Assembly (NCBI GenBank): GCA_029858565.1
Contig: JAOUEV010000021.1
Location: 1 to 50,489 of the forward strand
Origin: Nitrospirota bacterium
GTDB taxonomy: Bacteria; Nitrospirota; UBA9217
Direction: 5' to 3'
Length of the DNA stretch: 50,489 nucleotides
The position numbers were made by a program, and so were the translations under genes. The notes under the pieces were generated by a model. The model did not search any database and had not been told where the DNA came from. It saw only the letters and a program-made list of their open reading frames with translations. Below are positions 32,251-50,489 of this stretch, one piece after another. The stretch's first letter is position 1. Each line of letters opens with the position of its first letter.

Positions 32251-32336
<86 letters not shown>

Positions 32337-32337
32337 A

Positions 32338-32372
32338 ATATTTATGCGGATCTCGGAATGGATACGGAAAAG
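32338..32372. repeat. Heptamer-type degenerate repeat
   Basis: TTATGCGGATCTCGGAATGG occurs in the spacer after tRNA-Ser(TGA). Confidence 0.5.
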
Positions 32373-32433
32373 CACGTTGCAGATCCTGTTCATTCTTCAG
32401 TTAATGCGCAAGCTACAATCCAAGGTTAAATAC

Positions 32434-32523
32434 GGAGAGGTGGCCGAGAGGCTGAAGGCAGCTGCCTGCTAAGCAGTTGTGGGGGTAACCTCACCCCGGG
32501 TTCGAATCCCGGCCTCTCCGCCA
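32434..32523 (+). tRNA. tRNA-Ser(GCT)
   Basis: This is a 90-nt tRNA with encoded CCA, acceptor stem GGAGAGG/CCTCTCC and a long variable arm. The loop CTGCTAA gives anticodon GCT, decoding AGC/AGU. Confidence 0.95.
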
Positions 32524-32581
32524 TTTGATCGATAGCATAAGGCTTTCGAAACAGCTCAAAAATTCGAAGGAGGATGCAGAA

Positions 32582-33091
32582 ATGAAAAGGATAGTCGCGG
32601 CAGTGCTTGTTGCCGGTCTTATGGTCTCGTTTGCCGGCTGCAAGAAGAAGGAAGAGAAACCGCAGTTGCCCCCGGGTCATCCGAGCACCGAAGGTGGAAT
32701 GCCGCCGGCGGGGATGCCTGATATGCCGAAGGTCGACCGGAAGGTCGTTGTACCCAAGGAAGTGGCCGCAAAGTGGAAGGCTGTAAAGGTCACGATCGAG
32801 GACAAGGCCGCAAAATCGTCGAAGGAATATACGATCAGCGTGGGCGGCGAGCAGGCGGTTCCCAACACGAAATTCACCGTGAAGGTGCTCGCGTTCCTGC
32901 CGGATTTCCGCATGGGTGAGAAGGACATCACCTCCGCGTCGGACAAGCCGAACAACCCCGCAGCTCAGATCGCGGTGATCGAAGGAGGAAAGGAAGTATG
33001 GAAGGGCTGGCTCTATTCCATGCATCCCGGAATCCACCCCTTCCAGCATGAGAAGATCGGGCTGTCGCTGAACGGCGGCGTCTCGAAGTAA
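32582..33091 (+). CDS. Predicted lipoprotein, DUF2155-like
   Basis: This 169-residue protein has an N-terminal signal with a lipobox ending at Cys20 (VSFAGC), then a basic stretch, a Pro/Gly/Met-rich linker (about 28-55) and a single beta-rich domain. The pattern TVKVLAFLPDFRMG and GWLYSMHPGIHPFQHEK resembles the DUF2155 group of envelope lipoproteins. AGGAGG precedes the ATG, so the longer frame from 32525 is rejected. It lies between tRNA genes and is followed by a terminator hairpin. No function is known. Confidence 0.78.
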   Translation: MKRIVAAVLVAGLMVSFAGCKKKEEKPQLPPGHPSTEGGMPPAGMPDMPKVDRKVVVPKEVAAKWKAVKVTIEDKAAKSSKEYTISVGGEQAVPNTKFTVKVLAFLPDFRMGEKDITSASDKPNNPAAQIAVIEGGKEVWKGWLYSMHPGIHPFQHEKIGLSLNGGVSK

Positions 33092-33114
33092 GAACTGGAT
33101 CTGCCAACGACACA

Positions 33115-33147
33115 TGCACCGATGCCAGCGGCATCGGTGCATTGTTT
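33115..33147 (+). terminator. Hairpin terminator before tRNA-Arg
   Basis: TGCACCGATGCC/GGCATCGGTGCA (12 bp, perfect) with a 3-nt loop at 33127-33129, then TTGTTT. It ends the lipoprotein transcript before tRNA-Arg. Confidence 0.75.
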
Positions 33148-33149
33148 CT

Positions 33150-33226
33150 GCGCCCATAGCTCAGCTGGATAGAGCATCAGACTACGAATCTGGGGGTCAG
33201 AGGTTCGAATCCTCTTGGGCGCACCA
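33150..33226 (+). tRNA. tRNA-Arg(ACG)
   Basis: This is a 77-nt tRNA with encoded CCA and acceptor stem GCGCCCA/TGGGCGC. The anticodon loop ACTACGAA gives ACG, which must be deaminated to ICG at position 34 to read CGU, CGC and CGA. The deaminase gene tadA follows 8 nt later. Confidence 0.95.
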
Positions 33227-33233
33227 TTTTTCA

Positions 33234-33704
33234 ATGCAGACCGAACCGCGCAGGACAGATCAGGATTTCATGCGACTCGCCATTGCCGAGGCCGAACGGG
33301 CCGCGGCAGCGGGGGAGACGCCCATTGGCGCGGTCCTGGTCATTGATGATAAGGTCGTTGCTTCTGCGCACAATATGCGAGAGACCTGGCAGGACGCGAC
33401 TGCCCACGCTGAAGCCCTTGTGCTCAGGATGGCATCGACGAGCCTGGGTCGGTGGCGGCTGCCTGATGCAACGGTCTATGTGACCATGGAGCCCTGCCTT
33501 ATGTGCGCAGGTGCGCTGGTATTGGCAAGGATCGGCAGGCTGGTCTACGGCTGTCGTGATGAACGAGCGGGTGCGCTGGGGTCGGTATACGATGTTGTGC
33601 GCGACGGGAAACTGAATCACGTCTATCGCATTACGCCGGGCGTTCTCGAGACGGAGTGCCGCATGGTGCTTCAGGGATTCTTCGAGAAACTGAGGCAGAA
33701 ATAG
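33234..33704 (+). CDS. tadA: tRNA-specific adenosine deaminase TadA
   Basis: TadA (156 aa) deaminates A34 to inosine in tRNA-Arg(ACG). The zinc-deaminase signature is complete: His58-Ala-Glu60 in TAHAEA and Pro87-Cys88-x-x-Cys91 in MEPCLMC. The start is uncertain. The ATG at 33234 gives a full N-terminal helix similar to Escherichia coli TadA but has no ribosome-binding site within the tRNA-flanking sequence. An ATG at 33270 (MRLAIAEAER) has AGGA at the right spacing. The gene is directly downstream of its own substrate tRNA. Confidence 0.94.
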   Translation: MQTEPRRTDQDFMRLAIAEAERAAAAGETPIGAVLVIDDKVVASAHNMRETWQDATAHAEALVLRMASTSLGRWRLPDATVYVTMEPCLMCAGALVLARIGRLVYGCRDERAGALGSVYDVVRDGKLNHVYRITPGVLETECRMVLQGFFEKLRQK

Positions 33705-33725
33705 GGTCTCTCGGGTCAAATATTC

Positions 33726-33815
33726 GGAGAGGTGGCCGAGTGGCTGAAGGCGGCAGTCTCGAAAACTGTTGTGGGGGTAACTCCACCGGGGGTTCAAATC
33801 CCCCCCTCTCCGCCA
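33726..33815 (+). tRNA. tRNA-Ser(CGA)
   Basis: This is a 90-nt tRNA with encoded CCA, acceptor stem GGAGAGG/CCTCTCC and a long variable arm. The loop CTCGAAA gives anticodon CGA, decoding UCG. It begins 21 nt after tadA. Confidence 0.95.
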
Positions 33816-33828
33816 TATAAAACATTGT

Positions 33829-33925
33829 AGAATGCGGATTTCGGAATGAGAACCGGAAAGCGGTTCAGTTCCGAATTCAGAGCTTCTTCTGATCCGCAAT
33901 CCGAAATCTTTAAACCGAAATTGAA
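33829..33925. repeat. Heptamer-type repeats, facing copies
   Basis: AATGCGGATTTCGGAATG at the left and GATCCGCAATCCGAAATC near 33890 on the opposite sense, between two tRNA-Ser genes. Confidence 0.55.
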
Positions 33926-33929
33926 CAAC

Positions 33930-34017
33930 GGAGAGGTGGCCGAGCGGCTGAAGGCGCACGCTTGGAAAGCGTGTTTAGGGAAACCTAACGTGGGTTCGAA
34001 CCCCACCCTCTCCGCCA
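33930..34017 (+). tRNA. tRNA-Ser(GGA)
   Basis: This is an 88-nt tRNA with encoded CCA, acceptor stem GGAGAGG/CCTCTCC and a long variable arm. The loop CTTGGAAAG gives anticodon GGA, decoding UCC/UCU. It completes the serine set. Confidence 0.95.
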
Positions 34018-41685: not shown

Positions 41686-41761
41686 TCCCGGATAGCTCAG
41701 TCGGTAGAGCGGGTGGCTGTTAACCACCATGTCGCAGGTTCGAGTCCTGCTCCGGGAGCCA
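41686..41761 (+). tRNA. tRNA-Asn(GTT)
   Basis: This is a 76-nt tRNA with encoded CCA, acceptor stem TCCCGGA/TCCGGGA and anticodon loop CTGTTAA, anticodon GTT. It has its own promoter and terminator. Confidence 0.96.
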
Positions 41762-41856: not shown

Positions 41857-41885
41857 TTGACATGGTGTGTCATAAGTGTTACACT
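41857..41885 (+). promoter_or_regulatory. Promoter/operator of the toxin-antitoxin pair
   Basis: TTGACA at 41857 and TACACT at 41880 are 17 nt apart. Two inverted repeats lie on the elements: TGACA-N5-TGTCA (41858-41872) and AGTGT-T-ACACT (41875-41885). These fit autorepression by the ribbon-helix-helix antitoxin, though binding is not shown. Confidence 0.65.
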
Positions 41886-41906
41886 AATTGCATGGAGGTA
41901 AAGAAC

Positions 41907-42131
41907 ATGCCTGTAAAAAATCCGCGGATAAACGTTGTACTGGAAAAACCGTTATACAGCACGATCGAACGTCTTGCATCGCGAGACGGGGTTTCTCTGT
42001 CTCTCAAGGTTCGGGACCTGGTGAAAGAGGCGATCGAAATGGAAGAGGATGTTGCGCTTGGGGCGTTTGCATCCAAGAGGGAAAAGACGTTCACGAAAGC
42101 GAAATCCCTGAAGCATGACGAGGTCTGGTGA
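41907..42131 (+). CDS. Ribbon-helix-helix antitoxin
   Basis: This 74-residue protein has an N-terminal RINVVLEKPLYSTIERLA stretch, a ribbon strand and helix typical of RHH repressors. A charged C-terminal tail (REKTFTKAKSLKHDEVW) follows, typical of the toxin-binding part of antitoxins. GGAGGT precedes the ATG at 41907, so the longer frames from 41862 and 41892 are not chosen. It overlaps the toxin gene by 4 nt. It is preceded by a promoter with inverted repeats, consistent with autoregulation. Confidence 0.88.
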   Translation: MPVKNPRINVVLEKPLYSTIERLASRDGVSLSLKVRDLVKEAIEMEEDVALGAFASKREKTFTKAKSLKHDEVW

Positions 42132-42409
42132 TTGTGTCCTTCGAGCGAAGATACCACCCAGAGATCAAGTCAGCGGATATTCCTCTGCTTGATGCGAAAA
42201 TAAAAGAGCGCATCAAGAAAGCCATTGAAACGCGACTTACTACGGAGCCGCAGCTCTATGGTGCGCCCTTGCGGAAAACACTCCATGGTTATTGGAAGCT
42301 TCGCGTCGGGGATTATCGGGTGGTCTTCAAAATAGCCGGAAACGAAGTATGGATTCTCGGGATCATTCATCGAAAGAAAGTCTACGACGCTATCGAGAAG
42401 AGATTGTAG
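42128..42409 (+). CDS. RelE/ParE-superfamily toxin
   Basis: This 93-residue protein has the RelE fold signature PLRKTLHGYWKLRVGDYRVVFKI and a final IIHRKKVYDAIEKRL (the last basic residues lie at the active site in RelE). The start is a GTG overlapping the antitoxin stop (GTGA). RelE-type toxins cleave mRNA in the ribosomal A site, while ParE-type inhibit gyrase; this one looks RelE-like by its GDYRVVF core. The pair is intact. Confidence 0.88.
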   Translation: MIVSFERRYHPEIKSADIPLLDAKIKERIKKAIETRLTTEPQLYGAPLRKTLHGYWKLRVGDYRVVFKIAGNEVWILGIIHRKKVYDAIEKRL

Positions 42410-42459: not shown

Positions 42460-43821
42460 CTAATCCGCAGCCAATCCGAATTTTTTCAGCTTTCTCCAGA
42501 GCGACACACGGTCAATTCCCAGGATCTGTGAGGCCAATGTCCTGTTCCCGGCGACCTCGTTCAGCACCCATCGTATGTAGGCGAGCTCCTGCTCCTCCAG
42601 CGAGGGGATTCGTCCCTCTTTCTTGCGGAATGTCTTGATGTTCAGTTCCTTCAGGTCATCGGGAAGATGACCGAGCTCCACGGTCTTGCTGTTCGAGAGC
42701 GCGACCCCGCGCTCCACGATATTCTCCAGCTCCCGGACGTTGCCGGGGAAGTCATAGTTCATGAGCAGGCTGATCACGTCCTCGTTGATCTCGGTGACCG
42801 GCCTCTTCATGAGCGTAGCGTACTTCCTGAGGAAATAATAGGAGAGCAGGGGGATATCATCCTTGCGCTCGGCCAGCGGCGGGATGCGGAGCGATACAAC
42901 GTTCAGCCGGAAGTACAGGTCCTGGCGGAAAGCGCCGCTCTTAACGGTCTCCTGGATGTCCCGGTTCGTCGCGGCGACGAATCGCACATTGACCTTTACG
43001 GCCTCGGTGCCGCCAAGGCGCAGGATCTCCCGCTCCTGGATGACCCGGAGAAGCTTCACCTGCATGGAGGTCGGCATCTCGGTTATCTCATCAAGGAACA
43101 GCGTGCCTTCCGACGCCATCTCGATCAGGCCCTTTTTCGCGACAGCAGCGCCGGTAAATGCGCCTTTCTCATGGCCGAACAGCTCATTGGTCAGCAATTC
43201 CTCGTTAAAGGCGCCGCAGTTGATGGCGAAAAAAGGCCCTGCGGCGCGGCGGCTGTGGAGGTGGATGAACCGGGCGAACAACTCTTTGCCTGTCCCGCTC
43301 TCTCCGGAGATCAGCACATTCGTGTCTACCGGCGCAACTTGTCGCGCCACATCGAGCAGCCTTTGCATCCCCGGGTCCTGCGTGATGATCTTTACCTTGC
43401 CCTGGTAGGACTCGAGCTGTTCGCGCAGGTTGCGGTTCTCCTTCTTCAGGGCTACTTTGTGAACTGCTTCGGCGACCACCTTGCGGACATCATCAAGCTT
43501 GAAGGGCTTGGCAATATAATAGAAAGCGCCGTGCTTCATCGCCTCGACCGCCGACTCCAGCGTGGCAAAGCCCGTGATCATGATGACTTCGGTGTCCGGA
43601 TGGGCATCGCGGCATCGCTTGAGGACCTGGAATCCATCCACCTTTTCCATTTTCAGGTCGGTCAATACCACGTCGAAGGACATTTCTTCAAGCAGATTGA
43701 TCGCGTTCTGACCGCTCTGGGTCGCCGTGACCTCGTATCCTTCTTTCTTCATGACGTGTTCGAGATTCTTGAGCGCCACTCGCTCATCGTCGACAATGAG
43801 TATCTTAGCGTGAGTATTCAT
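42460..43821 (-). CDS. NtrC-family sigma-54 response regulator
   Basis: This 453-residue protein has a receiver domain (about 5-120) with DD11-12, phospho-acceptor Asp55, Thr83 and Lys105. Its sigma-54-interaction AAA+ domain (about 145-380) has GESGTGKE (173-180) and GAFTGA (220-225), the sigma-54 contact. It ends with a Fis-type helix-turn-helix (ASQILGIDRVSLWRKLKKFG). It is last in the minus-strand operon, 12 nt after the kinase gene, so it is the likely output. A sigma-54 promoter at 47740 drives the divergent operon and is the best candidate target. The target is inferred. Confidence 0.96.
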   Translation of the reverse strand: MNTHAKILIVDDERVALKNLEHVMKKEGYEVTATQSGQNAINLLEEMSFDVVLTDLKMEKVDGFQVLKRCRDAHPDTEVIMITGFATLESAVEAMKHGAFYYIAKPFKLDDVRKVVAEAVHKVALKKENRNLREQLESYQGKVKIITQDPGMQRLLDVARQVAPVDTNVLISGESGTGKELFARFIHLHSRRAAGPFFAINCGAFNEELLTNELFGHEKGAFTGAAVAKKGLIEMASEGTLFLDEITEMPTSMQVKLLRVIQEREILRLGGTEAVKVNVRFVAATNRDIQETVKSGAFRQDLYFRLNVVSLRIPPLAERKDDIPLLSYYFLRKYATLMKRPVTEINEDVISLLMNYDFPGNVRELENIVERGVALSNSKTVELGHLPDDLKELNIKTFRKKEGRIPSLEEQELAYIRWVLNEVAGNRTLASQILGIDRVSLWRKLKKFGLAAD

Positions 43822-43833
43822 TTCAATCCCTTC

Positions 43834-45339
43834 TCACTTCATCGGAAGCCTGATGAGGAACACCGTGCCCTTGCCTGCTTCGCTGTCCACGGCGATGCAC
43901 CCGTCGTGCTCATCGATGATCTCATGGACAATGAACAAACCAAGGCCCGATCCCCGACCAACGTCCTTGGTCGTGAAGAAGGGATCAAAAACCTTGGTAA
44001 GGATGTCCTCAGGGATGCCGCTGCCGGTATCGCGCACTTCGATATCCACCGTGTCATCCTCGAGCGTGCACTTGCCGTGATATTTGAGATAGTTGTAGAT
44101 ACCGCCGTCGTCTCCTACCTTGTCAATAGCGCGGTGAAAGCGGGCCGCGATTGTGATGGTCCCTTCCCCGGGGATCGCCTCGGCCGCGTTCTTCAGCAGG
44201 TTCAGGAAGACCTGCTGGATCCGCTGTTTGTCCGCGAGTATCTCTACATCTTCGGCGATATTGACCTGGATGGAGGCTTTCGCGGGTATCTGTCCCTTGA
44301 TGAAGCGGATGGTCTCGTTGATCAGTCCGCGGAGCGGGATCCGCTGTTTCTTGAACTCCCTGTCCCGGGAGAATTCGAGCAGCGAGCGGACGATGTTCCG
44401 CGCACGGTCGGTCTGCTCGTTGATCTGGTCGACCAGCTCCCGTTTGAATGCCGGATCCGCGCTGTCAAGCTCTTCCGCCAGGATCTGGCCTGACGAGGAT
44501 ATGTTGGAAAGAGGGTTGTTCAGCTCATGGGCCACTCCCGAGAGAAGCGTTCCCAGGGAAGCGAGCTTCTCCGACTGTACCAGGTGGCGCTGGCGGAGCT
44601 CAAGCTCGCGCAGCATCTTGTTGAAAGCGCGGGTCAGGGAAAGCACCTCGCGGTCCCGGGAATCGATCGGGATGTTCTCGAAGGTGCCTTCAGCGATCAC
44701 TTCCATGTTCCGCTCCATCAGCTTCAGCGGTTTCACGACCATGCGTTCAAGCACCTGGCCGATCACGATGACCAGTGCGATCAGGACCAGCAGGGAGATG
44801 AGCAGGAATCGCTGCGAGGCGGCAAGCAGCGCCTGGATGCTCGACCGTTCGTTCCGGGAGATCTCTTCGGCCACGGTCACGATATCCTTGCCGGTCTTGC
44901 GGATCTTTCCCTCCAGCCGGACCTTGAGCGCCTGATCCTCCGGCGTAGGTTTGGTTCGCTGACGGCGGATGAGCTTCTCGTACCGGTCCATCAGCTCCTG
45001 ATACTGGCGGAGGTCCTTGCGGAGCAAAACGATGACCTCGGGCGAGGCGAGGGCCGCGAAGCCGGCGCGACTGACGTCGAGGATCTCACCGGCCCGGAGG
45101 GCATAGCGCAGGTTTTCCGCGTAGTCCGACCGCTGCTCAAAGAGGAAATAATTCTTCTCGAACCGCCGGATCTCCAGGGTGGTATCGAAGAACTCGGAGA
45201 TCGTCTCGCCGACCATGATCTTCTTTTCAAGATAGCGAAGCTCCAGGAACGTGAAGGCCGAGAGACCGATGATCATGAGCACCACGGCGTAGTAACCAAG
45301 GCGGATCTTCTGGCGGATGCTGTGCTGGTATTTGATCAT
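43834..45339 (-). CDS. Membrane sensor histidine kinase
   Basis: This 501-residue kinase has two membrane helices (about residues 16-34 and 178-198) bracketing a helical, largely charged periplasmic region of about 140 residues. A HAMP domain follows (about 199-250), then HisKA with the phospho-acceptor His271 in GVAHELNNPLSNI. The HATPase domain has NLLKNAAEAI, DTGSGIP and GRGSGLGLFIV. The periplasmic part is rich in Arg/Glu/Leu (helical-bundle-like) with no known ligand pocket. It overlaps the Lon-hybrid gene by 4 nt (ATGA), so the two are tightly coupled. Confidence 0.96.
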   Translation of the reverse strand: MIKYQHSIRQKIRLGYYAVVLMIIGLSAFTFLELRYLEKKIMVGETISEFFDTTLEIRRFEKNYFLFEQRSDYAENLRYALRAGEILDVSRAGFAALASPEVIVLLRKDLRQYQELMDRYEKLIRRQRTKPTPEDQALKVRLEGKIRKTGKDIVTVAEEISRNERSSIQALLAASQRFLLISLLVLIALVIVIGQVLERMVVKPLKLMERNMEVIAEGTFENIPIDSRDREVLSLTRAFNKMLRELELRQRHLVQSEKLASLGTLLSGVAHELNNPLSNISSSGQILAEELDSADPAFKRELVDQINEQTDRARNIVRSLLEFSRDREFKKQRIPLRGLINETIRFIKGQIPAKASIQVNIAEDVEILADKQRIQQVFLNLLKNAAEAIPGEGTITIAARFHRAIDKVGDDGGIYNYLKYHGKCTLEDDTVDIEVRDTGSGIPEDILTKVFDPFFTTKDVGRGSGLGLFIVHEIIDEHDGCIAVDSEAGKGTVFLIRLPMK

Positions 45340-47339
45340 TGCTGCACCAGGACCTGCGGAACGATCTCGGCGACCGTGTCGGCCAGGATGATCGTAATGT
45401 CCGACCGGACGGCGGCGGGAAGCTCGTCCACGTCGCTCCTGTTCTTGAGCGGCAGCACGATGGTGCGGACCCCGGCCCGTCGGGCGGCAAGCACTTTTTC
45501 CCGCACACCTGCAACCGGCAGCAGTCTGCCGGTGAGCGTGATCTCGCCGGAAAGGGCGACATCCCTGCGGGCCGGACGGCTGGTCAGGAGCGACAGGATC
45601 GCGACCGCGATCGTGATGCCCGCCGAGGGTCCGTCCTTCTGGATAGCGCCGGAGGGAACATGAATATGGATGTCCTGGTTCTCGAAGAAGTCCTCGGGGA
45701 TGGCAAAGGTCCGGGCGTTGCTCCTGATATAGGAAAGGGCTGCCTGGGCCGATTCGCGCATCACGTCGCCGAGCGATCCCGTGATGATCAGCTCCTTCTT
45801 CCCTTTCATGGCAACCGCTTCGACAAAGATGATATCGCCTCCGGCTTCGGTCCGGACAAGACCGGTCGCGACGCCGATCCGGTCCGTTTCCTCGACAACG
45901 TCAACGTGATATTTCTTCCTGCCCAGGAACCGCTCAAGCTCCGCCGGCGTGACGGTCACGGATTTTCGGCCGCCGGAGCCGAGCGACTCCTTTGCGAGCT
46001 TTCTGCAGACCATGGCGATCTGGCGCTCCAGGCCGCGTATGCCGGCCTCCCGGGTGTGTTCCCGGATGACGTGCTCCAGGGCTGCCTGGGTAAAGACGAC
46101 CTGGTCCGGTGACAGGCCTTTTTCACGGACCTGTTTCGGCACCAGGAACCGCGAAGCGATCTCGAGCTTATCCTCGAGCGCGTATCCGGAGAACTCGATG
46201 ACCTCCATGCGGTCGCGCAGCGGACCGGGCATGGCCTCAACGACATTCGCCGTGACAATGAACATCACGCCGGACAGGTCAAAGGGAACATCGAGGTAAT
46301 GGTCAGTGAAGGCCCGGTTCTGCTCCGGGTCCAGGACCTCCAGCAGGGCCGACGCCGGGTCTCCCTTGAAGTCCGAACCGATCTTGTCCAGCTCATCGAG
46401 CATCAGAACGGGATTCGCAGAACCCACCCGCCGGATCTCTTCAATGATCCTGCCGGGCCGCGCGCCGGTGTATGTCCGGCGATGGCCGCGGATGTCCGCT
46501 TCGTCCTTCACCCCGCCCAGGGAGATGCGGGCGAAGTTCCTTCCCAGGGCAAGCGCTATGGACCTGCCAAGAGAGGTCTTTCCCGTGCCCGGAGGCCCGG
46601 CAAAGCAGAGCACGGTGCCTCGCGAGCCCGTTGCGAGCGATCGTTTTTCAAGGGCTTGCCGGACGGTTTCGCGCACTTCATCGAGCTTATAGGGCTTGGT
46701 GATGTAATGGAAGGCTCCCCGCTTCATCGCATCGATCGCTGACTGGACCGTGGCGAATCCGGTAACAATGATCACCCGGGTCTCGGGAAAGCGCTTCTTC
46801 ACCGATTCAAGAAGGTCCATGCCGCTTACCGGGCCCATGCGCAGGTCCGTCAGGACAACGTCGAACTCACCGGTCTCGAGAGCCTGGAGCCCTGATTCCG
46901 CGTCAGCGGCGGTTACGACCTCATAGTGCTCCCTGGTCAGGATATGAGAAAGGTTCTTTCGAGCGATCTCCTCATCGTCAATGACAAGGATGCGCGCCTG
47001 CCTGTTCATCCGCAGCACCTTGACCGCGAGGTGCTCCAGCACGCGCTCCTTGATCAGCTCGAGACCGAAATGGTGTTCATTCAGCACGCGCTCTGCGCGA
47101 ACGATGTCAAGGTTGTCCTCGGTGCGGTGGTTCCAGGGAAGGGAGAGCAGGTAGTCGATGTAGGTGAGGCCGATGGAGAACTCGGCGGACGACGGTCCGA
47201 TCTTCGACAGGACCTCGAGCTCCTGTACGGCAACAGGAGCGACCACAGGGGGCAGATGGGCATTTTCGATCCTCTGGCGCAGCTCTGCGAGGACCTGATC
47301 CTGTTCCTTGTCGGTATTTTTTTTATTAAAGAATCCCAT
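45336..47339 (-). CDS. Lon-type ATP-dependent protease with inserted receiver domain (REC-Lon hybrid)
   Basis: This 667-residue protein (numbering from the ATG at 47337-47339) is a Lon protease rearranged in two ways. It lacks the N-terminal substrate-recognition (LAN) domain, keeping only the short helical end with IDYLLSLPWN and NEHHFGLELIKERVLEHLAV. A full receiver domain (about 115-234) then follows, with DD121-122, phospho-acceptor Asp165, Thr193 and Lys215, inserted just before the AAA+ module. The AAA+ has GPPGTGKT (248-255), LMLDELDK and DPASALLEVLDPEQN. The C-terminal protease has the Ser572-Lys615 dyad (KDGPSAG and VREKV). Both motor and protease look active. The N-terminal frame from TTG 47381 is rejected. 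Confidence 0.93.
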   Translation of the reverse strand: MGFFNKKNTDKEQDQVLAELRQRIENAHLPPVVAPVAVQELEVLSKIGPSSAEFSIGLTYIDYLLSLPWNHRTEDNLDIVRAERVLNEHHFGLELIKERVLEHLAVKVLRMNRQARILVIDDEEIARKNLSHILTREHYEVVTAADAESGLQALETGEFDVVLTDLRMGPVSGMDLLESVKKRFPETRVIIVTGFATVQSAIDAMKRGAFHYITKPYKLDEVRETVRQALEKRSLATGSRGTVLCFAGPPGTGKTSLGRSIALALGRNFARISLGGVKDEADIRGHRRTYTGARPGRIIEEIRRVGSANPVLMLDELDKIGSDFKGDPASALLEVLDPEQNRAFTDHYLDVPFDLSGVMFIVTANVVEAMPGPLRDRMEVIEFSGYALEDKLEIASRFLVPKQVREKGLSPDQVVFTQAALEHVIREHTREAGIRGLERQIAMVCRKLAKESLGSGGRKSVTVTPAELERFLGRKKYHVDVVEETDRIGVATGLVRTEAGGDIIFVEAVAMKGKKELIITGSLGDVMRESAQAALSYIRSNARTFAIPEDFFENQDIHIHVPSGAIQKDGPSAGITIAVAILSLLTSRPARRDVALSGEITLTGRLLPVAGVREKVLAARRAGVRTIVLPLKNRSDVDELPAAVRSDITIILADTVAEIVPQVLVQQ

Positions 47340-47562
47340 GTCCAATGATCCAGGAAAACCGGTTTTCGCGCGAAGCCGCAAAGCCGCTAAAAAAGATTAA
47401 AGGAACAAGCCGTAGCAGCGGAAAAACAAGGAACATGTTCTGAGTACTGTATCCATTCATCTTAGCGAAGGGTCTGCCCAAGACATTTGTCCTGTTTTTC
47501 TTTGCGGCTTTGGGCGAGACAGAAAATGAATTTAGATAGCACTTAACAACGACCCGGCATCA

Positions 47563-47597
47563 GTTGCATTTTACAACGCCTAGCTGGTAAGTGCAAC
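47563..47597. promoter_or_regulatory. Candidate enhancer (UAS) inverted repeat
   Basis: GTTGCATTTTAC (47563-47574) and GTAAGTGCAAC (47587-47597) form an imperfect inverted repeat. A third related copy TTGCATTTGTAAACAAC is at 47650-47666. They lie 85-180 nt upstream of the sigma-54 promoter, the usual distance for an NtrC-type activator. Confidence 0.5.
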
Positions 47598-47739
47598 AGC
47601 GATTATTTCTCAATTTAACAATATGTTACATGATTCATTATAAAGACCATTGCATTTGTAAACAACACTGTCCGATTACTGTACCGGATACTGAACCTAT
47701 TACTTCTTAATATACAACACGTTCCGCATAAAGGGAACT

Positions 47740-47756
47740 TTGGCACGATGGTTGTA
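47740..47756 (+). promoter_or_regulatory. Sigma-54 promoter (-24/-12) of the Usp/TauE operon
   Basis: TGGCACG-ATGG-TTGTA closely matches the sigma-54 consensus TGGCACG-N4-TTGCA (GG and TTG present with correct spacing; one mismatch in the -12). It is about 40 nt before the first gene. Confidence 0.82.
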
Positions 47757-47795
47757 ATAGTAATAATAGAAAAACAATGAAAGGAGGGTTGACCT

Positions 47796-47966
47796 ATGAA
47801 GACCCTGTTAAAGAAAATGGAGACGATGTTCGCAGCATCAGCATTTGCCGAGGCCGGAGAACATGAGACCGCGCGCCAGATCCTGAAGGACGCTGAGCAG
47901 CGGAAGAACGATCGTCCGTCGCTTCAGGCGCGTCCATCCACCAGGCCGTCGCTGCGGGCGAACTAG
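47796..47966 (+). CDS. Small protein, first gene of sigma-54 operon (56 aa)
   Basis: This 56-codon gene has a strong AAGGAGGG ribosome-binding site. It encodes a helix with KKMETMFAASAFAEAGEHETARQI, followed by an Arg/Ser/Pro-rich basic tail (PSLQARPSTRPSLRAN). Residues about 5-30 resemble the N-terminus of the next protein (KQIEDSLAAVSFAEEGQQETAATL), so the two share a motif. It is the first gene after the sigma-54 promoter, 21 nt before the Usp-like gene. I recognise no named family. A coiled-coil regulator or partner is possible but not shown. Confidence 0.8.
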   Translation: MKTLLKKMETMFAASAFAEAGEHETARQILKDAEQRKNDRPSLQARPSTRPSLRAN

Positions 47967-47987: not shown

Positions 47988-48485
47988 ATGGACAGCCAGA
48001 AGCTCAAGAAGATCATGAAGCAGATCGAGGATTCCCTCGCAGCGGTCTCCTTTGCCGAGGAAGGCCAGCAGGAGACGGCGGCTACCCTGTTCCGGAGGGA
48101 GCGGAGACTGCTCGTCGCGGTGCGGGAAGGACATGTCGATCCAAAGACCCTGAAGTACGGCCTGAATACCGCTGTCAGGATCGGATCGCAGGTCGACATC
48201 CTCTATGTCACCGCCGAGGGCGGCGGCCACACGCGGATCGACAAGGACCTCGAGGAGTTCGATCGCGAACTTTCGGCAGCTGCCATTCCTCATCGCCTGG
48301 TCAGGAAGAGCGGCTGTCTGAAGCAGCAGATCATCGACTACACGAACAAGGAGCATGAGGTGCTCTTCGTGGTTGTCGAATCCCCCCGCAGTCTGGATGC
48401 GGACTGCTCGGGCAAGGACACCGCGCTGACAGAGTTGTGGAAAAAGCTGCGGTGTCCGCTTGTGGTGGTGTCTGAAGCGCAGTAA
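47988..48485 (+). CDS. Usp-like protein with N-terminal FAEEG motif
   Basis: This 165-residue protein has an N-terminal helix (residues 1-35, QIEDSLAAVSFAEEGQQETA) matching the 56-aa protein upstream. A Rossmann-like alpha/beta domain follows (RLLVAVREGHVDPKTLKYGLNTAVRIGSQVDILYV; then HEVLFVVVES and LRCPLVVVSE). It resembles the universal stress protein fold but lacks the canonical G-x2-G-x9-G[ST] ATP loop. It is in the sigma-54 operon, 21 nt after the 56-aa gene. Function is unknown; the shared motif suggests the two are linked. Confidence 0.75.
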   Translation: MDSQKLKKIMKQIEDSLAAVSFAEEGQQETAATLFRRERRLLVAVREGHVDPKTLKYGLNTAVRIGSQVDILYVTAEGGGHTRIDKDLEEFDRELSAAAIPHRLVRKSGCLKQQIIDYTNKEHEVLFVVVESPRSLDADCSGKDTALTELWKKLRCPLVVVSEAQ

Positions 48486-48572: not shown

Positions 48573-48824
48573 ATGGCAGCAACAAGCAGCAAGAAAAAAC
48601 CGGTCACCGCGCTGGTGATCACCGGTATCGTGTCGATCGTGATGTACGGTCTGCTCCTGACCAAGCAGGAACTGATCAACAGCACCTTCGGCAAGGGCGG
48701 ATGGTTCGCATTCCTTCCGATCGTGACGGCATTCCTGTTCTCCTTCGTGCACGGAGCGTTCACCGGCCACTTCTGGACCGTGCTCGGCATCGAAGCGGCA
48801 AAAAAGAAGAAGGAGGTAAAGTAA
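48573..48824 (+). CDS. Small two-helix membrane protein
   Basis: This 83-residue protein has a basic N-terminus (TSSKKKPVTA) and two hydrophobic segments (about residues 12-29 and 44-66, the latter FLPIVTAFLFSFVHGAF). A Lys-rich C-terminus (AAKKKKEVK) follows, placing both ends in the cytoplasm. AAGGAGG precedes the ATG. It ends 1 nt before the TauE-family permease gene, so it may be an accessory subunit, but no family is recognised. Confidence 0.8.
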   Translation: MAATSSKKKPVTALVITGIVSIVMYGLLLTKQELINSTFGKGGWFAFLPIVTAFLFSFVHGAFTGHFWTVLGIEAAKKKKEVK

Positions 48825-48825
48825 G

Positions 48826-49908
48826 ATGCACGATATTGCGACGAATTTCATCAATCTTGATCTCATCACCATGCTGTACCTCTTCGGTGTCGGTTTCGTT
48901 GGCGGCCTGGTCTCCGGTTTCATCGGTTCGGGCGGCGCTTTTGTGCTTACCCCGGGCATGATGAGCCTGGGCGTTCCCGGTCTCATGGCAGTTGCGAGCA
49001 ATATGTGCCACAAGTTCCCCAAGGCGCTGGTCGGCGCGGTGAAGCGCGCCAAGTACGGCCAGGTGGACGTGAAGCTCGGGATCATTCTCGGCATCTCGGC
49101 TGAAGCGGGTGTGCTCTACGGCGCGCATATCCAGGAGAGCATCAAGAAGGCCTTTGGCGATGCCGGTTCTAACCTTTATGTCAGCGCCGCGTTCGTGGTG
49201 ATCCTTGCCACTGTGGGCGGGTTCGTTCTGCGCGACGCATGGAAGACCCATAAGTCCGGAACCGCACATGAAGAGGAAAAGGCAGGCAAGCTGGCCAAAT
49301 GGGTGCAGTCCATCAACATTCCCGGCACTATGGTCTACTTCAAGAGCCTGAACGCCAAGGTCTCGGTGCTCTTTACCATCCCCCTCGGGTTCGCAACCGG
49401 CATGCTGGCCGCGACGATCGCCGTGGGCGGATTCGTGGGCGTTCCGTCCATGATCTATGTTCTCGGCGCGCCGAGCATCATGGCGTCGGCAACAGAGCTG
49501 GTGATCGCCTTTGTGATGGGCGTGGGCGGATCGTTCAAGTACGCGCTTTCGGGCCTGGTGGACATCAGGCTGGCCATGCTGATCCTCGCGGGCTCGCTCT
49601 TCGGCGTTCAGCTTGGCGCGATCGGCACGACCTACGTGAAACCCTTCATGATCAAGATGGTGATGGGGGTGATCATGGTGATCGTGCTCTTCAGCCGTGC
49701 GCTCATGATCCCGGTCTATATGTCCCAGCTCGGCTTGATGGACAAGATGGGCGACATGACCGTGAAGGTGCTGAAGAACACCAGTTTTGCTATAATGATC
49801 GCAGCACTGGCGATCGGAGCGTTCATCATCATTAAGGCCTTTGTGGAAGGCCGCAGGGAAGAGAAGCTCCGCCTGGCGTCAGAAGCGCTGGAACATGGGA
49901 AAATATAA
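48826..49908 (+). CDS. TauE/SafE-family membrane permease
   Basis: This 360-residue integral membrane protein has about eight hydrophobic segments and the TauE/SafE hallmarks GGLVSGFIGSGGAFVLTPGM near the N-terminus and GMLAATIAVGGFVGVPSMIYVLG near the second half. TauE/SafE proteins are proposed exporters of sulfite, sulfoacetate or related anions. A soluble loop of about 50 residues separates the halves (about 135-175). The family is broad, so the substrate is uncertain. It lies in the sigma-54 operon and overlaps the following Usp gene by 14 nt. Confidence 0.88.
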   Translation: MHDIATNFINLDLITMLYLFGVGFVGGLVSGFIGSGGAFVLTPGMMSLGVPGLMAVASNMCHKFPKALVGAVKRAKYGQVDVKLGIILGISAEAGVLYGAHIQESIKKAFGDAGSNLYVSAAFVVILATVGGFVLRDAWKTHKSGTAHEEEKAGKLAKWVQSINIPGTMVYFKSLNAKVSVLFTIPLGFATGMLAATIAVGGFVGVPSMIYVLGAPSIMASATELVIAFVMGVGGSFKYALSGLVDIRLAMLILAGSLFGVQLGAIGTTYVKPFMIKMVMGVIMVIVLFSRALMIPVYMSQLGLMDKMGDMTVKVLKNTSFAIMIAALAIGAFIIIKAFVEGRREEKLRLASEALEHGKI

Positions 49909-50489
49909 GAAAATCCTTATAGCTGTCGATGGTTCTGAATCAAGCCGGAACGCGCTCCTGCAGGCGTTCCGGCTTGCTGTTGAAGAAAAGTGCTGGATCA
50001 CGGTCACGTCGGTCGTCCCGCCGGTCACCGGCGACCTGGACCTTACCGGCGTGTCGGACGTTCGCGCTTCCCTTGCCAAACCCTGCGAAGATGCCCTGAC
50101 CGAAGCACGCAGTCTCGCCGAGCAGGAGTGCATCCTGATCAAGACAGTGCGCGAGGAAGGCGAGACCTATGAGCGGATCGTGGACCTGGCAGATGCCGAG
50201 AACGCGGACATCATCGTCATGGGACGCAGGGGACTGCGCAGAATGGCGCGCGTTCTGGTCGGCAGTGTGACCGCGCGGGTGATCGGCCACACGCAGCGTG
50301 ATGTTCTTGTGGTCCCCGCGGGCTCGATCCTGGGCTGGAAGAAGATCGTGGTTGCCACGGACGGATCCCGGTTCAGCGCGAAGGCGACGGACAAGGCCAT
50401 CAGCTTTGCCCAGGCCTACGGCGGATCGCTCGCGGTCCTGTCGGTGGTCGATGTGCCGCCGGAGCTGTATGCCGAGGCGCCGCAGGCGG
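49895..50489 (+). CDS. Tandem universal stress protein, 3'-truncated by window end
   Basis: The frame opens at ATG 49895, overlapping the permease end by 14 nt, and is open for 198 codons to the window edge. A full Usp domain comes first (KKILIAVDGSES, then MGRRGLRRMARVLVGSV, which fits the ATP-binding G-x2-G-x9-GS motif). A second one begins at about residue 146 (KKIVVATDGSRFSAKA). Tandem Usp proteins bind ATP or AMP and act in stress or energy signalling. It is part of the sigma-54 operon. The C-terminus is not in the window. Confidence 0.93.
   Translation, partial: MGKYKKILIAVDGSESSRNALLQAFRLAVEEKCWITVTSVVPPVTGDLDLTGVSDVRASLAKPCEDALTEARSLAEQECILIKTVREEGETYERIVDLADAENADIIVMGRRGLRRMARVLVGSVTARVIGHTQRDVLVVPAGSILGWKKIVVATDGSRFSAKATDKAISFAQAYGGSLAVLSVVDVPPELYAEAPQA

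Follow-up and report, generated by a model that had tools for sequence, protein, structure and literature searches.

A predicted enhancer-dependent sigma-54 promoter between a kinase–regulator–Lon operon and a TauE/universal stress protein operon in Nitrospirota

The window, a stretch of 50,489 nucleotides forming contig JAOUEV010000021.1 of a Nitrospirota bacterium, ends in two operons that diverge from a common intergenic region. On one side lie genes for signalling proteins; on the other, downstream of a sigma-54-type promoter, five genes run to the contig end at 50489. The features on which the argument depends are as follows.

42460–43821, minus strand: NtrC-family response regulator, REC–AAA+–Fis helix-turn-helix, with GAFTGA and recognition helix LGIDRVSLWRKLK (Pfam PF00072, PF00158, PF02954)
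43834–45339, minus strand: membrane histidine kinase with HAMP domain, predicted partner kinase (Pfam PF00672, PF00512, PF02518)
45336–47339, minus strand: receiver–Lon fusion, first gene of the divergent operon (Pfam PF00072, PF00004, PF05362; NCBIfam lon TIGR00763 above cut-off)
47364–47525: MITE-like interspersed repeat, its inverted ends resembling AAGCCGCAAAGCCGC / CTTTGCGGCTTTGGGCG, that separates site 1 from the start of the divergent gene
47563–47577: predicted enhancer site 1, GTTGCATTTTACAAC, one mismatch from GTTGCAnnnTGCAAC, at -178 from the TGG
47587–47597, minus strand: predicted enhancer half-site 2, GTAAGTGCAAC (TGCAAC), retained by most type-A loci (defined below) ~28 nt past the start of site 1
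47649–47663: predicted enhancer site 3, ATTGCATTTGTAAAC, a degenerate palindrome with four mismatches at the conserved position -92
47712–47724, plus strand: IHF-like site, degenerate ATACAACACGTTC, three mismatches from WATCAANNNNTTR; near -29 in relatives
47741–47756, plus strand: sigma-54 promoter TGGCACG-N4-TTGTA (TGGCACGATGGTTGTA), from the motif and its conservation in orthologues
47796–47966, plus strand: first gene, 56-aa helical protein (KKMETMFAASAFAEAGEHETA) with ribosome-binding site AAAGGAGGG; orthologues in type-A loci
47988–48485, plus strand: 165-aa protein, a FAEEG helix as in the 56-aa protein followed by a Usp-like region; present in 10/14 family genomes; no match in Pfam or NCBIfam
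48573–48824, plus strand: 83-aa small membrane protein, no family match; orthologues in nearly all loci
48826–49908, plus strand: TauE/SafE (TSUP) permease (Pfam PF01925)
49895–50489, plus strand: universal stress protein (Pfam PF00582), truncated by the contig end

The product of 42460–43821 combines a REC domain, a sigma-54 AAA+ domain with GAFTGA (read in the ORF translation) and a Fis helix-turn-helix, the make-up of an NtrC-family bEBP. The receiver–Lon protein has a short N-terminal Lon remnant, an inserted REC domain, an AAA+ module and a Lon protease domain, with the Walker A motif at residue 248 and GPSAG at 570; in several relatives it is missing at the locus or placed elsewhere nearby. 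The first two products of the opposite operon are FAEAGE-type helical and Usp-like proteins. A first-pass annotation of 47340–47966, which corresponds to the intergenic region and the first small gene, had placed a Usp/TauE operon behind the promoter and an NtrC-type activator in the divergent operon. Both assignments are borne out by the Pfam matches, although the whole operon extends to 50489, and the helix of the activator co-segregates with the type of upstream site, as described below. BLAST finds one or other end of the MITE-like repeat at 19 further places in the genome. C144:14493–14664 resembles a copy of similar length; in some relatives site 1 lies far nearer the divergent gene. Elsewhere in the window, two small genes at 41862–42409 resemble a RelB/RelE-type toxin–antitoxin module and adjoin a tRNA-Asn gene (41686–41761), and four tRNA-Ser genes, all with different anticodons, are clustered with one tRNA-Arg gene at 32251–34017.

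The TGGCACG-N4-TTGTA promoter is present as originally proposed, its start at 47741 falling one base away from the 47740 first given. Across the 3.92 Mb of the genome the pattern TGGCACGNNNNTTGYW is found 7 times and its reversed control twice, which argues that the promoter match is not due to chance; the genome has a single rpoN gene. A sigma-54 promoter precedes the orthologous operons in ~70 loci, nearly all of those with enough upstream DNA, and in the -24/-12 element, which is of the enhancer-dependent sigma-54 type, GG and TG are nearly invariant across them. The -12 element of the window reads TTGT, not TTGC, and the usual C is absent in nearly all orthologues too: following TTG, most type-A promoters have A or T and most type-B promoters have G, C being rare, so that a non-C at this position is itself conserved. 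The sequence TTGTAATAG, at or just past the -12 element (47752–47760), is common to close relatives (L018, L034, L017) and other promoters of the same genome (contigs C46 and C86). Also on C46, at ~13.5 kb, a sigma-54 promoter, TGGCACGGGGATTGTAATAG, stands ahead of a rhodanese-like gene (ending in VVYCRVGNRSAFAAAYLARMGY).

Upstream of the promoter lies an array of two GTTGCAnnnTGCAAC palindromes with a half-site between them. The three repeats that had been claimed 85–180 nt upstream were located at 47563, 47587 and 47649, inside that range. When every 15-mer on the given strand of the window was scored with a weight matrix derived solely from relatives, leaving the window out, 47563 came first, at 18.7 bits against 10.3 for the next; the half-site came fourth and site 3 twelfth. 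A scan of the whole genome for the palindrome with up to two mismatches gave 88 places where the reversed control gave 42, and is too noisy to use, but among the six palindromes with one mismatch only the window site is near a matched sigma-54 promoter. Another of these one-mismatch type-A palindromes, C29:10652–10666, lies directly past a sigma-70-like promoter (TTGACC-N17-TATAAT) ahead of a putative lipoprotein gene, and is a possible extra target.

We compared 80 permease-encoding loci. Most are from Nitrospirota; a few carry the labels Desulfobulbaceae, Syntrophaceae, Sulfuricella and Candidatus Desulfobacillus. Among these loci two enhancer classes were recognised, type A, which includes the window, and type B. 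In type A, GTTGCAnnnTGCAAC usually occurs at about -178 to -182 and again at about -92, with the TGCAAC half-site ~28 nt past the start of the first. Site 1 was found with at most two mismatches in 25/28 loci (0.11 expected) and site 3 with at most three in 27/28 (0.29 expected), site 1 being placed elsewhere, mostly further upstream, in about a third of type-A loci. Among 14 diverse type-A loci, pairwise identity is 0.76 for site 1, 0.71 for site 3 and 0.66 for the promoter, against 0.24–0.29 for the flanks. The window and its relatives thus share conserved upstream activator sites ~80–200 bp from the promoter, the arrangement of an enhancer-dependent sigma-54 promoter. Lack of conservation of the repeats in relatives had been named at the outset as the finding that would count against this reading; instead, the promoter and the GTTGCAnnnTGCAAC sites are found again, at nearly constant distances, in distant Nitrospirota and in some other bacteria. 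The circuit read from raw sequence therefore appears to be real and old, its promoter and enhancers persisting where the flanking DNA has diverged to background.

Between enhancer and promoter, an IHF-like site is clear in relatives and degenerate in the window. Matches to WATCAANNNNTTR with at most one mismatch occur in 14/28 type-A loci (1.1 expected), mostly at -28 to -30, and in 18/35 type-B loci (1.8 expected), where they lie at -18. Four genes of the HU/IHF family are present in the genome.

Every type-A locus with a linked upstream regulator has a divergent NtrC orthologue with the helix DRVSLWRK or a one-residue variant, and the orthologues beside type-A sites are mostly 68–83% identical. 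In type B, represented by ~35 loci, a single GTTTCAnnnTGAAAC palindrome at -69 is preceded by a half-site GTTCAC, and the gene of the regulator, whose helix is SRTSLW(R/K), usually lies directly upstream in the same orientation. A strict positional table of site type against linked regulator type gives 23 A–A and 25 B–B pairs with two exceptions (48/50). Fisher's test gives p 6e-12, a value that is inflated by shared ancestry and overstates independence: most loci come from a single phylum, and the type-A and type-B regulators may be no more than two ancient lineages. In both exceptions (L093 and L097, an A regulator with a B call) a perfect A site is present at -146, together with a hybrid, GTTTCATTYTGCAAC, at -72/-70. 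This co-segregation lends strong inferential support to recognition of the type-A sites by the divergent regulator.

The same genome also contains a type-B circuit, on contig C137: it has a regulator type of its own, its B-type site falls at exactly -69, and an IHF-like site lies at -18. The type-B circuit (HK-EBP followed by Usp-like/TauE/Usp) shares with the window the target gene family, the sigma-54 promoter and the IHF-like site, but differs in its GTTTCAnnnTGAAAC plus half-site at -69, its helix SRTSLWRI where the window type has DRVSLWRK, and the usual position of its regulator, upstream on the same strand. Whether the two paralogous activators of this transporter and stress family are insulated from each other by a matched code, within the phylum and even one genome, is in our estimation an even bet; the pairs would be DRVSLWRK with GTTGCAnnnTGCAAC and SRTSLWRI with GTTTCAnnnTGAAAC, set in rigid geometries of -178/-92/-29 and -69/-18. 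If true, the code would offer a natural specificity-switch pair for regulators with a Fis-type helix-turn-helix, and the matched regulator and site pairs are material for testing the rules of DNA recognition in the NtrC family. A third paralogous FAEAGE/TauE operon lies on contig C86 of the same genome (L159, ~14.9–15.3 kb). It has TGGCACGCATGTTGTA and a sigma-54 regulator of its own (helix LGIYRQQLQRKIK); AACAAC/GCAACA elements are present upstream, without a palindrome that is clearly of the A or B type.

As a whole, the intergenic region is best explained as an enhancer-dependent sigma-54 promoter switched on by the divergent NtrC-type regulator, to which we assign a probability of roughly 0.9 on the strength of the sites, their geometry and conservation, the gene identities and the co-segregation of regulator and site. 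About two dozen NtrC-like regulators are encoded in the genome, and one of these, rather than the divergent one, might bind the sites of a promoter that is nonetheless sigma-54 dependent. We consider this very unlikely: it is the type of the divergent regulator that follows the type of the site across loci, the C137 regulator, one of its nearest paralogues, comes with a separate operon whose site differs, and the counterpart in Desulfovibrio vulgaris binds both operons (Rajeev et al., 2011; PMC3333781). Slightly less credible still is a scheme in which the palindromes serve mainly to autoregulate the divergent signalling operon, activation of the transporter operon being secondary. Site 1 does stand close upstream of the divergent gene in several relatives, and the D. 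vulgaris regulator DVU3305 binds its own operon, which is without a sigma-54 promoter (Kazakov et al., 2015; PMC4641369). However, the distances of the sites are near-fixed relative to the sigma-54 promoter, and in the window a repeat of ~160 bp stands between site 1 and the divergent gene.

The least probable alternative is that a sigma-70-type promoter on the same bases (TTGGCA-16-AATAAT, 47740–47767) drives the operon and that the sigma-54 match is coincidental. The bases agree with such a promoter at 10 of 12 positions, yet about one match of this quality is expected by chance in the region, and the orthologues do not keep the AATAAT; on these grounds the sigma-70 reading was rejected. The near-invariance of the -24/-12 GG and TG and the fixed distance of the enhancer sites likewise suit sigma-54.

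For the sigma-54 switch under the divergent regulator a course of events can be proposed, in which we infer the signal, the phosphotransfer, the looping, the gating of Lon and the transported anion. The HAMP histidine kinase would sense stress and phosphorylate the NtrC-type regulator (42460–43821), whose dimers would bind the two GTTGCAnnnTGCAAC palindromes and the half-site between them and then oligomerise. Looping of the DNA, assisted in relatives by IHF, would bring the regulator into contact with the sigma-54 polymerase at 47741, turning on the FAEAGE/Usp-like/TauE/Usp operon. The same kinase probably has the receiver–Lon protein, a protease gated by phosphorylation, as its second output, and site 1 with the half-site probably also permits autoregulation of the divergent operon.

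Classical promoters of the NtrC/NifA kind (glnA, nifH type) combine palindromic upstream sites, an IHF-like site, a -24/-12 element and an AAA+ activator with a Fis-type helix-turn-helix. The window shares the palindromic sites, the -24/-12 element and the activator type, and its relatives the IHF-like site as well. It differs in its recognition sequence, in the palindrome/half-site/palindrome array and, together with its relatives, in a -12 element of TTGT, TTGA or TTGG instead of TTGC.

A closer parallel has been described in D. vulgaris Hildenborough, where DVU3303 is a response regulator with a Lon protease, DVU3304 a kinase and DVU3305 a sigma-54 regulator (Rajeev et al., 2011; PMC3333781). 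By DAP-chip, DVU3305 binds its own operon and DVU3302-3298, which encodes membrane proteins and hypothetical proteins, UspA-type domains being present in some of them; orthologues were noted in Thermodesulfovibrio yellowstonii, Thioalkalivibrio and Dechloromonas, mostly with a Lon-type partner and a conserved site (PMC3333781). The same regulon was listed later (Kazakov et al., 2015; PMC4641369), and in a 2023 fitness study the patterns of DVU3303-3305 were very similar to one another, while DVU3299, a putative anion transporter, had a phenotype in chlorate (PMC10102598). Both systems encode receiver–Lon, histidine kinase and sigma-54 EBP together, beside a sigma-54 operon for Usp-type proteins and a putative anion transporter, of TSUP type in the window. 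DVU3305 is reported as GAFSGA, whereas the type-A regulators of the window and its relatives have GAFTGA. The window, set beside the published description, is therefore most likely the Nitrospirota version of the DVU3303-3305 circuit. The first-pass annotation had called the circuit self-contained: the activator gene does lie in the divergent operon, but self-containment was only inferred, and DVU3305 has additional targets, kdp and DVU2822-2825 (PMC3333781). The type of circuit having been described in 2011, the novelty here is modest, namely the full enhancer layout and, possibly, a site code of two paralogues. Even so, the comparison extends the three-component stress system of D. vulgaris across Nitrospirota, with a concrete predicted binding motif and geometry.
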